Source of the DNA: Synechococcus sp. WH 8016
GTDB lineage: Bacteria > Cyanobacteriota > Cyanobacteriia > PCC-6307 > Cyanobiaceae
Assembly (NCBI RefSeq): GCF_000230675.1
Contig: NZ_AGIK01000003.1
Location: 62,001-126,000, forward strand
Direction: 5' to 3'
Length of the DNA: 64,000 nt
A program made the position numbers and the translations under genes. Positions 32,328-35,974 of the stretch are shown piece after piece. A model generated the notes under the pieces. The model was given only the letters and a program-made list of their open reading frames with translations, ran no database searches and had not been told where the DNA came from. Numbering within the stretch: position 1 is the stretch's first letter; every line of letters starts with the position of its first letter.

Positions 32328-33941
32328 ATGCCCAACGCGCCAGGAACGGTTCTGTCGCTGAATCAGTTGCGTCTGCGCTACCCGGGAAGTCCGTCCTGGA
32401 CGCTGGACGGATTGGATCTCAGCCTGCAATCGGGAGATCGCTTGGCACTCGTTGGTCCGTCTGGATGCGGGAAGAGCACCGTGGCAAGAGCGGCCTTGCA
32501 ACTACTGCCTCCAGGGAGCTGCTGCGAAGGAGATCTCCTTCTGAATGGTCAAGATCCACGCCAACTGAGTCGGCCTGCCCTGCGCGCCCTGCGCGGGGAA
32601 GCGGTGGGCCTGGTGTTTCAAGACCCGATGACTCGGCTCAATCCATTGATGACCGTGGGCGGCCACCTCCTCGACACCTTTGCCGCTCACCGGCCAGGCA
32701 TGGGGCATCACGAGCGGAAAGACCGCGCAGAAAGCTTGCTGGAACAGGTAGGCATCGGGGCCGAGCGCTTTCGGGCCTACCCCCACGAATTCAGTGGTGG
32801 CATGCGCCAGCGTTTAGCCATCGCCCTGGCCATTGCCCTGGCACCACCGCTGGTGATCGCCGACGAACCCACCACCAGCCTGGATGTGGCAGTGGCGGGG
32901 CAGGTGATGGCGGTGCTGCGCAATCTCTGCGAAGAGCTGGGCAGCGCCCTGCTGCTCATTACCCATGACTTGGCCATGGCCAACCGCTGGTGCGAAGACA
33001 TGGCGGTATTGGACGGGGGCCGTCTTGTGGAACAAAACAGCAGCGATCAGGTGCTGACCCATCCCCAATCCGAGATCGCCAAGCGGCTTGTTAGCGCGGC
33101 CAGGGCCAGAGAGGGAGGCGATACGCCGGAAACACCTGACGGCACCCCCGTCCTGCAGGTGGAAGGCTTGCGCTGTTGGCACAACCTCGGCGGACCACCC
33201 TGGTCTCCCAACTGGCTGAAAGCGGTTGATGGCGTGAGCTTCAGCTTGCAATCCGGAGAATCACTGGGAGTGGTCGGCGGCTCTGGCTGCGGGAAAAGCA
33301 CCCTGTGCCGAGCCTTGATGGGACTCACGCCCATTCGGGGGGGCGACGTTTGGCTGCAGAACCAGAACCTGCTGCAACTGCGCGGCAGCGCTGAACGCCA
33401 AGCACGACGCACCATTCAGATGGTGTTTCAAGACCCGCTGGCCTGTCTGAATCCAGCCCTCAGCGTTGCCGACGCCATCGCAGACCCCCTGCTGATCCAT
33501 GGACTCGCCTCACGGGCAGCCGCTCGAGAACGGGCAAGGGAGCTCCTGGAGCTGGTGGGACTATCACCAGCGGATCATTTTCAAAATCGACTGCCCAAGC
33601 AACTATCTGGTGGCCAACAGCAACGCATCGCCATTGCACGCGCCCTGGCTTTAGACCCGCAGGTGCTGATCTGCGACGAAAGCGTGAGCATGCTCGATGC
33701 GGAGATCCAAGCCGAAGTCCTGGCACTGCTCAGAGGTCTGCAGCAAGACCTCGGCCTGGCGATGATTTTTGTGACCCATGACCTCTCGGTGGCGAGCGGC
33801 TTCTGCCACCGCGTGCTCGTGCTGGATCGAGGGCATGTTGTGGAAGAAGGTCCCGGAGATCGGTTGCTCCATCAACCGCAAGCAGCCATTACCCGCACCT
33901 TGGTGGAAGCCTGTCCACTGCTGCCAACCAGCACCCCATGA
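32328..33941 (+). CDS. Double ABC ATPase of the dipeptide/oligopeptide importer type (DppD-DppF fusion, YejF-like)
   Basis: Two ABC ATPase domains in one chain. Domain 1 (about residues 8-255): Walker A GPSGCGKST, signature EFSGGMRQRLAIALA, Walker B LVIADEPTTSLD, switch His in LITHDLAM. Domain 2 (275-530): Walker A GGSGCGKST, signature QLSGGQQQRIAIARAL, Walker B VLICDESVSMLD, THDLSV. Both lack defects, so both should hydrolyse ATP. This is the layout of peptide, nickel and microcin-C importers. No permease or binding protein is adjacent. ATG at 32328 (MPNAPGTVLSL); another at 32316. Confidence 0.9.
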   Translation: MPNAPGTVLSLNQLRLRYPGSPSWTLDGLDLSLQSGDRLALVGPSGCGKSTVARAALQLLPPGSCCEGDLLLNGQDPRQLSRPALRALRGEAVGLVFQDPMTRLNPLMTVGGHLLDTFAAHRPGMGHHERKDRAESLLEQVGIGAERFRAYPHEFSGGMRQRLAIALAIALAPPLVIADEPTTSLDVAVAGQVMAVLRNLCEELGSALLLITHDLAMANRWCEDMAVLDGGRLVEQNSSDQVLTHPQSEIAKRLVSAARAREGGDTPETPDGTPVLQVEGLRCWHNLGGPPWSPNWLKAVDGVSFSLQSGESLGVVGGSGCGKSTLCRALMGLTPIRGGDVWLQNQNLLQLRGSAERQARRTIQMVFQDPLACLNPALSVADAIADPLLIHGLASRAAARERARELLELVGLSPADHFQNRLPKQLSGGQQQRIAIARALALDPQVLICDESVSMLDAEIQAEVLALLRGLQQDLGLAMIFVTHDLSVASGFCHRVLVLDRGHVVEEGPGDRLLHQPQAAITRTLVEACPLLPTSTP

Positions 33942-34309
33942 GCATCCAGGCTTTCGTCCATGACATCGACATCGTGGGGTGCATGTACCCCTTCACCTTC
34001 ATGTTCCAGCCGCTGACCAAGGTGATTGAACTCAGAGTCTGGTGTTGATTTATGAGCAACAAAAAATGAGATCCCGCCTCGATTTACGCAGAGAGATTAA
34101 ACACTTGAATCCTTGCTCCGTTAACGCAAATCACTGTTGAACAAAGCCATCCGTTTGAAGGAGAGTTATTCCGATTGAATCGGACGGGAATGGGAAGCAC
34201 AACCACCCATCTCTGCCGTGAAAATATTCAGACATAGGTTCTGCTTTTACAGTCATAACTTGGTTGGAATTCAGCGCTGAGATGACATCGTCCCCCCATA
34301 TCAAGGGTC
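33942..34309. other. Noncoding stretch between the ABC gene and the CBM2-type gene
   Basis: These 368 bases have no supported gene. A 36-codon frame (33938-34048, MSIQAFVHDIDIVGCMYP...) starts in the ABC stop codon as ATGA and has an odd Tyr/Phe/Met-rich composition; it could be a remnant. A perfect inverted repeat CCGATTGAATCGG lies at 34171-34183. The rest is AT-rich and likely contains the promoter of the next gene. Confidence 0.4.
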
Positions 34310-35974
34310 ATGGCATCTACAAATTCCTTGCAAATCTCCATCTCCGGTGATCGGTGGTGGGGAGGGTTCACAGCGGAAATCACACTCACCAATTCATCCA
34401 CACAAGATCTTGCGAATTGGAGCTACAGCTTTGATAGCCCCCACCTCATCAACACCGCTCCTTGGGGAGCCGAGATCAGTGCTGTTCTTCTCGACAACGG
34501 CCTCACCCGCTACACCCTGACGGGACAAGACTGGGGAGAAAAGATTCCAGCCGGAGAGTCGGTCACCATTGGATTCAATGGAACCCAAGGCACGGATCTA
34601 GGCAATCAAGGGGAACTGTCTGCGGCCATGCTCTTCGGCTCAGACAGCGCGGAAGCCGTGATGTCTCAGGTGAGTGAAGAGAGCTCTGAGAGTTCTGACA
34701 CGACGACTAATCCAGGGTTTGAACCAGGCATTGAGACCCCTGCGATGACGTCGCAGGTGACGTCGCCGATGGAGTCAACCATGGCGTCACCGATGTCGGA
34801 GCAGAGCGTGGGAGATCACGGGATGAACCATGGTTCCAGTTCTGGGGATTACATCGACATCAACACCTGGGGTTCCTTTCATGGCTCCAATCACAACTCC
34901 GAGCACGATGAGTTGGTGGGTGGTCGCACAGCGATCACGACAGAAGCGATGCTTGCCTACAACGGCTTGCGTGCCTTTGCGGGCCTGGATGTTGTTGAGA
35001 TTGAGGAAGTTGGTGAGTGGGCATTCGCCCAGGGTCTGACGAACAACTCCGAGGCTTGGGGTGATGACACCAAAGGGGTGGGACTTTGGTTTGCCATGCA
35101 GGGAGCCAAGGTGGGCTGGATCTCCGATGCGTCCTACGACCCGCAAATTTTGGCCGACATTCAACGCACGGCTCGTTTGGGCAGCAGTGGTGAAGTGATG
35201 CAGATGATTGAGCAGTTTGGCCATGAGGGTTTTGCCGACCATCTAACAACCAATCAACTGGAAGAAAATTTCATCAATACCCTCAAAATGGAGCCACACT
35301 ACGGAGGTTGGATGCATGGACGCACCCACGGCTTTCGTGACATCGAAGGCGTAGCTATTGCCCATGATATTCACCATTTAACAGTGTTGGGATGGGATCA
35401 GAATGAACCCTTTATGAATGACACCTTCGACTGGCCCCAATGGCCTGCCCTCGATGTCAGCGACAACACAGTCATCAACTATTTCCAAGGAATTGTTGCG
35501 CTGGGAGATCCACTTTCTGAGAACCTAGAAAATCTTTCTGGAAGCACACCATCGCCTGGTTCAAGCGATACAGAGCCTTCACAAAGCTCCTCACTGTCTG
35601 ATCCCGGACCGTCTGATCCCATCACGGGGTCCCCCCTGGAGATTCAGGTCAGTGGTGATCTTTGGGAGGGTGGCTTCACCGCCTCGATGAATGTGACCAA
35701 TCAAAGCGAGCAAACATTGGACGATTGGGGGGTCAGTTTCATCAGCACGCATCAGTTTTACGGAGAATCTTGGGGGGTTGATGTCTCTACGCAAGAGATT
35801 GGAGACGGCCTTTACAGCTACGAGCTCACAGGGGCTGATTGGGCGCAATCGCTCGCCGCTGGTCAAGCCATGACGGTGGGATTCAATGCCTTGAGCGCAG
35901 AGGACCTCAGCGGGGATGCGTCTCTGACATCCGAACTGCTGATGGCACCTGGAACGGAGCTCACGCTCCTCTAA
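34310..35974 (+). CDS. Protein with two CBM2-like cellulose-binding modules flanking an unknown histidine-rich domain
   Basis: The 554-residue protein has two related modules: residues 7-110 (ISGDRWWGGFTAEITLTN, W-x-x-W pairs, WGAEISAVLL, GESVTIGFNG) and 443-547 (VSGDLWEGGFTASMNVTN, SWGVDVSTQEI, GQAMTVGFNA). These match the CBM2 pattern. They are joined by Ser/Thr/Pro/Glu-rich linkers (111-165 and 405-442). The middle, residues 180-400, is new to me: INTWGSFHGSNHNSEHDELVG in part, GGWMHGRTHGFRD and AHDIHHLTVLGWD cluster the histidines. No Cys and no N-terminal signal peptide are seen; export by a type I route or by an unusual route would be needed. It could be a polysaccharide-bound surface or extracellular protein. 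Confidence 0.7.
   Translation: MASTNSLQISISGDRWWGGFTAEITLTNSSTQDLANWSYSFDSPHLINTAPWGAEISAVLLDNGLTRYTLTGQDWGEKIPAGESVTIGFNGTQGTDLGNQGELSAAMLFGSDSAEAVMSQVSEESSESSDTTTNPGFEPGIETPAMTSQVTSPMESTMASPMSEQSVGDHGMNHGSSSGDYIDINTWGSFHGSNHNSEHDELVGGRTAITTEAMLAYNGLRAFAGLDVVEIEEVGEWAFAQGLTNNSEAWGDDTKGVGLWFAMQGAKVGWISDASYDPQILADIQRTARLGSSGEVMQMIEQFGHEGFADHLTTNQLEENFINTLKMEPHYGGWMHGRTHGFRDIEGVAIAHDIHHLTVLGWDQNEPFMNDTFDWPQWPALDVSDNTVINYFQGIVALGDPLSENLENLSGSTPSPGSSDTEPSQSSSLSDPGPSDPITGSPLEIQVSGDLWEGGFTASMNVTNQSEQTLDDWGVSFISTHQFYGESWGVDVSTQEIGDGLYSYELTGADWAQSLAAGQAMTVGFNALSAEDLSGDASLTSELLMAPGTELTLL

Follow-up and report, generated by a model that had tools for sequence, protein, structure and literature searches.

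The window, a stretch of 64,000 nt from Synechococcus sp. WH 8016 (genome of 2.69 Mb in 16 contigs), contains an open reading frame that begins with an ATG codon and encodes a protein of 554 aa. The features of the gene are listed in Table 1, and the central part of the protein is called domain X throughout. As had been predicted, the protein does not contain a single Cys. A signal peptide was not seen by eye, and the N-terminal CBM2 match starts already at residue 14. The gene had been described as standing alone beside an AT-rich gap, and this description holds insofar as the neighbours and the gap are of the following kind. The other genes between 29936 and 37850 encode RelA/SpoT (-), an ABC-transporter ATPase with two ABC domains (+), a pseudouridine synthase with an S4 domain (-), and a ribosome-binding GTPase. 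The upstream gap is mildly AT-rich (GC 0.47 versus 0.587 for the window), and an Rfam scan of 33900-34400 at E values up to 1 yielded zero matches. The X gene is located between the ABC-transporter ATPase and the pseudouridine synthase both in the window and in RCC307, and likewise in WH7803, where a solute-binding protein and a small ORF are also present. The comparison of these three genomes makes the position look old within the genus, not freshly acquired.

Table 1. Features of the gene for the CBM2-X-CBM2 protein; positions refer to the window.
Feature	Position	Strand	Family
Whole gene, 554 aa: CBM2, His/Met-rich linker, domain X, linker, CBM2	34310-35974	+	
N-terminal CBM2, residues 14-96	34349-34597	+	Pfam PF00553
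40 residues (141-180) before X, with 2 His and 5 Met	34730-34849	+	
Domain X, residues 181-407, predicted mainly helical; no family in the libraries searched	34850-35530	+	
E212, start of a predicted helix; unvaried in 66/66 aligned members	34943-34945	+	
M327-E328-P-H330 ... M335-H336; named residues unvaried in 66/66 aligned members	35288-35317	+	
H352-D353-x-x-H356, one predicted helix; H, D and H unvaried in 66/66	35363-35377	+	
FMNDTFDW (368-375) including D371; strongly conserved, lower model confidence	35411-35434	+	
C-terminal CBM2	35660-35908	+	Pfam PF00553
Upstream gap, mildly AT-rich, GC 0.47	33942-34309	.	

The original prediction had assigned both ends of the protein to CBM2 and had found no recognisable motif in the centre. 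Both assignments were borne out by the profile searches, which revealed neither a known enzyme family in the centre nor ends that fail to match CBM2. The whole protein scored 69.2 bits against the Pfam family CBM_2 in two stretches (E 4.3e-19; cut-off 24), and singly the N-terminal and the C-terminal module reached 45.1 and 42.9 bits, both also above the cut-off of 24. The two modules are identical to one another at 34 of 77 positions. The likeness to CBM2 is confined to the ends, and none of 53 X domains matched CBM_2 (0/53).

No credible family was found for domain X in Pfam, NCBIfam, PHROGs or the sequences of the PDB. The window X itself (residues 181-407) stayed below the cut-off of every Pfam family and did not match NCBIfam. 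When 53 X members were compared with Pfam at E values up to 1, seven families were matched, none of them credible, and neither an LPMO family nor any of the glycoside hydrolase families held in Pfam was among them. The two candidates DUF6600 (20 of 53 members, best E 0.0081; the window X reached 12.1 bits with a cut-off of 27) and DUF7453 (5 of 53 members, best E 0.0055) were counted as chance matches. The same 53 members gave scattered weak matches, each with one or two members, to NCBIfam (best E 0.021) and PHROGs (best E 0.0039), which were also ascribed to chance, as were pieces of cytochrome P450 that an X profile retrieved from the PDB sequences at E 0.14 and above.

The structure of X was predicted with AlphaFold2 for the window protein (model 1; pLDDT 87.6, pTM 0.89) and, with a different alignment, for a Mycolicibacterium protein (model 2; pLDDT 90.8, pTM 0.91). 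Both models are helical and contain the same twelve helices in the same order. Foldseek did not find a match to either model in the PDB at E 0.001 or better, which is not proof of a new fold. The best Z values of VIA-align were 2.5 over 77 residues for model 1 and 2.6 over 89 residues for model 2, and a comparison of model 2 with the predicted viral structures of BFVD yielded nothing at E 0.001 or better. Neither Foldseek nor VIA-align matched the X models to the type 3 copper (tyrosinase-like) fold, a result that does not exclude that fold. In summary, X appears to be undescribed in the libraries and the literature searched, and a description may exist in chitin-use literature beyond these.

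The conservation of X is high. The alignment of 66 members, in which the numbering equals the residue number of the window protein minus 180, contains 60 unvaried columns, 15 of which are His, Asp, Glu, Arg or Lys. One set of X rows was prepared by leaving out sequences below 215 aa, sequences containing the letter X, and those with an identity of 93% or more. E212, E328, D353 and D371 did not vary in any of the 66 members. The His clusters that had been noticed earlier (H330, H336 and H340; H352, H355 and H356) were found at the expected places. Among 100 distinct X sequences with at least 100 bits, H330, H336, H352 and H356 were unvaried in all 100, while H340 was kept in 87. These four residues agree with the earlier suggestion that the His might form a metal site. 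H195, a further candidate for an unvaried residue, was rejected, because it varies in the X alignments.

Domain X was present in 24 of 31 genomes of the same genus, and no match contained an internal stop. Seven of the 31 genomes are less than 90% complete or more than 5% contaminated, and two of these are among the seven genomes without X. The ratios of dN/dS were quantified for ten pairs of five close orthologues and amounted to 0.07-0.14 for X, 0.09-0.30 for the CBM2 modules, and about 0.2-0.7 for the linkers. The occurrence of X in the genus without internal stops and its low dN/dS values show that the open reading frame is real, beyond chance.

The protein had been regarded as unusual for a phototroph. 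For the genus this did not hold, as the frequency given above shows X to be common there; for cyanobacteria at large it did, because in an even draw from the larger group only 9 of 386 genomes contained X, all nine from the window's own family. In a species-level collection with one genome per species, 95 loci encode X, 80 of which were kept. Judged by the record titles, the hosts are many Planctomycetota, the cyanobacteria Synechococcus and (once) Prochlorococcus, the genera Mycobacterium and Mycolicibacterium, alphaproteobacteria such as Roseibium, as well as Haliea and a few bins from further phyla. In the order around one host genome (G408), X was found in 1 of 200 genomes, namely G408 itself. 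The identity to the window X was at least 59% across the alignment of 53 rows. In 12 members from other phyla or from an IMG/VR contig it was 62-73%, whereas the CBM2 modules of the same members were 27-49% identical to those of the window. Seven proteins contain two copies of X (L017, L018, L033, L042, L051, L058 and L098).

A tree of 66 X rows was calculated with a quick method, after removal of sequences shorter than 200 aa and of those that shared 92% identity or more with a row already included. The X domains cluster by phylum, with exceptions, and therefore horizontal transfer of X may have occurred. The X domains of five loci from bins labelled Dehalococcoidia, Deltaproteobacteria, Spirochaeta and Micrococcales (L047, L049, L051, L052, L058) are placed among those of the planctomycetes; for L051 and L058 this applies to one of the two copies, and the other copy is found elsewhere in the tree. 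Either mis-binning or transfer could account for these bins. The window X did not match any sequence in the comparison with plasmids and phages. On one IMG/VR contig (L141), CBM2, X and GH18 are combined in a single protein.

The domains that accompany X were analyzed next. A home-built CBM2 model, made from nine modules of the same X-bearing proteins, matched 57 of 81 X-bearing ORFs. A Pfam scan of 54 of the 81 ORFs, some of which are cut by contig ends, revealed CBM2 in 34, Calx-beta in 14, GH5 in 10, GH18 in 7 and GH9 in 2 cases, whereby the counts for the three hydrolases may overlap. Examples are CBM2-X-CBM2-GH9 in Synechococcus UW140 (L043), a protein with X, CBM2 and GH9 in another genus of the window's family (L122), one with CBM2, X, GH18 and CBM2 in a planctomycete bin (L050), and, in Mycolicibacterium rhodesiae (L087), one with CBM2, Calx-beta and GH5 that carries X at its C-terminus. 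X is often C-terminal in proteins of bins labelled Phycisphaerae or Phycisphaerales, and one member carries RTX repeats. A GH6 domain in L055, guessed by eye, was dropped because Pfam did not find one. The window protein has no hydrolase domain, and X is accompanied there solely by CBM2. Several X proteins from planctomycetes, Haliea and mycobacteria begin with a stretch that resembles a signal peptide by eye, and this suggests that X proteins may act outside the cell. Marine Synechococcus chitinases lack a signal peptide and have been detected in exoproteomes (PMC4949707).

The genome of WH 8016 encodes its own ChiA, a CBM2 and GH18 protein of 1033 aa, on a gene separate from the X gene (L113, C1, 1458-4559). 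It resembles proteins from elsewhere that unite X and GH18 in one chain. In comparison to L141, 215 of 407 residues of the GH18 part and 140 of 236 residues of the N-terminal part are identical, and the N-terminal part shares 134 of 218 residues with L048. The GH18 part is 46-53% identical to those of five X-bearing proteins (L141, L050, L055, L048, L082), with lower values for L052 (38%) and L074 (30%). The N-terminal approximately 236 residues of ChiA, common to L141 and L048, did not match any Pfam family. The chains of L050, L055, L048 and L141 have CBM2 and GH18 in common with the ChiA of WH 8016, and differ in that X resides on a separate gene in this genome. Because X and GH18 form one chain elsewhere and are encoded by two genes here, the comparison suggests that the X protein and ChiA may work together.

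Within the genus, X and the GH18 of ChiA co-occurred in 18 of 31 genomes, X alone was found in six, ChiA alone in four, and neither in three. In two of the 18 genomes just remains of chiA are present. The association of X with ChiA in the genus was not significant (Fisher p 0.38; 0.68 when the remains were counted as absent). The six genomes with X alone are all at least 93% complete, and the ORFs in which CBM2 was matched there correspond to the X gene in size and place. X is thus kept without ChiA in six genomes, and therefore it must be useful without ChiA as well. In G021 (C1:941478-942816) the GH18 of ChiA is split into three pieces with internal stops, and in G001 (C1:758901-759032) it is reduced to a match of 44 residues; X is intact in both genomes.

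Experimental results are available for WH7803. In this genome (G420), three ORFs with CBM2 were found at E values up to 0.1, with lengths of 1058 aa, 624 aa and 537 aa. The 537-aa protein (L044) contains X at 155-386, identical to the window X at 177 of 228 positions, and CBM2 at 23-103 and 433-513, and it is the only one of the three with CBM2 at both ends. Capovilla et al. described ChiA as a GH18 protein with two N-terminal CBM2, WH7803_2345 as a protein with two peripheral CBM2, and WH7803_2069 as a protein with one central CBM2 (PMC10651935). The X protein of WH7803 is thus most likely WH7803_2345, an assignment made by elimination on the CBM2 layout and not by locus tag. WH7803_2345 resembles the window protein in having CBM2 at each end, and its central domain is not described in the main parts of that paper (PMC10651935). 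A full-text literature search with the locus tag WH7803_2345 retrieved this paper alone.

Deletion of WH7803_2345 lowered the chitinase activity although chiA expression was increased, and the attachment of the mutant to chitin was unchanged (PMC10651935). Deletion of chiA alone abolished the endochitinase and chitobiosidase activities measured in the spent medium, and knock-down of WH7803_2069 lowered chiA expression (PMC10651935). The authors favoured an indirect or regulatory role of WH7803_2345 and suggested complex formation or regulation; with E. coli expression constructs of the full-length WH7803 genes they did not obtain colonies (PMC10651935).

In about half of the copies, the linker upstream of X is rich in His and Met. 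The 40 aa before X were counted when at least 38 aa were present upstream, and 140 copies were reduced to 64 nonredundant copies with less than 90% identity. They contain 7.03% His and 5.12% Met. At least three His were found in 33 of the 64 copies, in contrast to 2.7% of 15,213 overlapping control windows (40 residues of the same ORFs, outside of X, the 60 residues before X, and CBM2) and to 0 of 31 stretches downstream of X. The fraction with at least three His was 8/11 for genus-mates, 4/4 for other cyanobacterial copies, 13/23 for Planctomycetota, 2/7 for Pseudomonadota, and 1/13 for Actinomycetota. The window's own linker contains 5 Met and just 2 His. The feature extends beyond the X proteins. 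Of 11 ChiA loci (two of which are apparently the same WH7803 gene), 10 contain three or more His within 40 residues, and in the 624-aa protein of WH7803, apparently WH7803_2069 (L145), the CBM2 is flanked on each side by a very Met-rich linker of the MDMDMGM type. Because ChiA and the apparent WH7803_2069 are rich in His or Met without containing X, the richness is a trait of the whole set and not of X alone. Met-rich segments of CueO-like proteins bind copper(I), and a function as copper sponge has been proposed for CueO, though binding of Cu(I) to the His of its Met-rich domain could not be identified (PMC11840665).

Taken together, the fusions and the published mutant support a helper role in polysaccharide breakdown. 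The reading that we prefer, tentatively, is that the protein is a secreted helper in the breakdown of chitin or cellulose and that X is a metal-dependent catalytic domain, anchored via CBM2. Export, catalysis, metal and copper are what we infer for the X protein, catalysis and the metal because His, Asp and Glu are unvaried and the linker is rich in His and Met. The protein would leave the cell although it lacks a classical signal peptide, and its two CBM2 modules would bind insoluble chitin or cellulose and thus hold X at the polymer surface. The metal ligands of X would come from the set of H330, H336, H352, H356, D353 and E328. The linker rich in His and Met may gather the metal for X, with copper as the first guess. 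X could then act on the polymer or on breakdown products and render glycoside hydrolases such as ChiA more effective. X occurs with GH5, GH9 and GH18, and therefore its action would be one common to both polymers and not that of a chitin deacetylase. The GH5, GH18 and GH9 fusions are also compatible with a secreted enzyme of a new type, which the original prediction had put forward. H352, D353 and H356 lie on one and the same helix of the AlphaFold2 model of the window X, and for a metal site the four His would have to come together in space. What has to be weighed against the preferred reading is that X and ChiA are not significantly associated in the genus, that the linker of the window protein and those of most Actinomycetota and Pseudomonadota copies are poor in His, that ChiA and the apparent WH7803_2069 have such stretches without X, and that Cu(I) binding to the His of the Met-rich domain of CueO could not be identified (PMC11840665). 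The published results weigh against it as well, since the mutant still attaches to chitin, the measured activity disappears on deletion of chiA alone, and the authors favour an indirect or regulatory role (PMC10651935).

Two known enzyme classes invite comparison with the preferred reading. LPMOs (AA9, AA10) resemble the X protein only in the proposed job, in which a metal-using protein assists hydrolases in their work on insoluble polymers. However, LPMOs have a beta-sandwich fold and a catalytic domain whose mature N-terminus is a His. In contrast, X lacks an LPMO match in Pfam, is predicted to be mainly helical, and is internal, starting at residue 181 behind a CBM2, and thus does not have an N-terminal His, though a cleavage before X is possible. 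HExxH metallopeptidases are defined by the HExxH motif, whereas the motif of X is HDxxH, with D353 unvaried throughout the 66 aligned members. None of the 31 genomes of the genus yielded a match to Pfam LPMO_10; an oxidative helper of another kind would thus have a place, but nothing is proven by this. A more specific version of the catalytic reading would be that X represents a new class of helical copper-dependent enzymes that attack chitin and cellulose oxidatively, with a job like that of LPMOs and an unrelated fold. It would be fused to chitinases or cellulases in planctomycetes, mycobacteria and alphaproteobacteria, and marine Synechococcus would mostly keep it as a separate partner. This version we regard as unlikely.

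The best alternative to a catalytic X, though still rather unlikely, is that X is a non-catalytic module, a scaffold, adhesin or regulator that attaches to the polymer or to a partner such as ChiA, and that its conservation reflects binding. Part of the chitinase activity persists when WH7803_2345 is lost, and the complex formation or regulation suggested by the authors would fit (PMC10651935). The restriction of the window protein to X and CBM2, without a hydrolase, points in the same direction. However, the unchanged attachment of the mutant to chitin argues against such a module (PMC10651935). The extent of conservation is a second difficulty for this alternative. The 60 unvaried columns among 66 members, with 15 charged or His residues, exceed what is usual for a binding module.

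It is distinctly unlikely that X is a new family of glycoside hydrolases or lyases that operates via acidic residues, e.g., E212, E328, D353 and D371, and in which the His are structural or bind the substrate. The four residues are indeed invariant, and X is fused to CBM2 like known hydrolases, but the Pfam matches of 53 X domains do not include a GH family. Furthermore, deletion of chiA alone removed the measured activities, so that X showed none of them under those conditions (PMC10651935), and X often shares its chain with another hydrolase, although this is still compatible with a hydrolytic X. Very improbable is a role of X and the His/Met-rich stretch in storing or buffering copper or zinc at the cell surface or at particles, with polysaccharide binding for placement only, because, despite the His- or Met-rich linkers of many X proteins, most examined ChiA loci and the apparent WH7803_2069, and despite the copper sponge proposed for the Met-rich domain of CueO (PMC11840665), the unvaried core of X is that of a folded domain and is kept by members with a His-poor linker.

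What is known is the polysaccharide-acting setting of CBM2 and, via the apparent orthologue of WH7803, the protein itself; the central domain X appears to be new to the libraries and literature searched. X would add an undescribed and widely spread domain to the machinery for chitin and cellulose breakdown. The unexplained chitinase phenotype of the WH7803_2345 mutant gains a concrete target, namely a small number of unvaried His that are open to substitution. Should X be non-catalytic, its fusions still mark polysaccharide-acting proteins that were missed by the family libraries searched. If X is catalytic, this would bear on the use of particles by marine picocyanobacteria and on enzyme discovery, and should X turn out to represent a new enzyme class, it would be categorically new.
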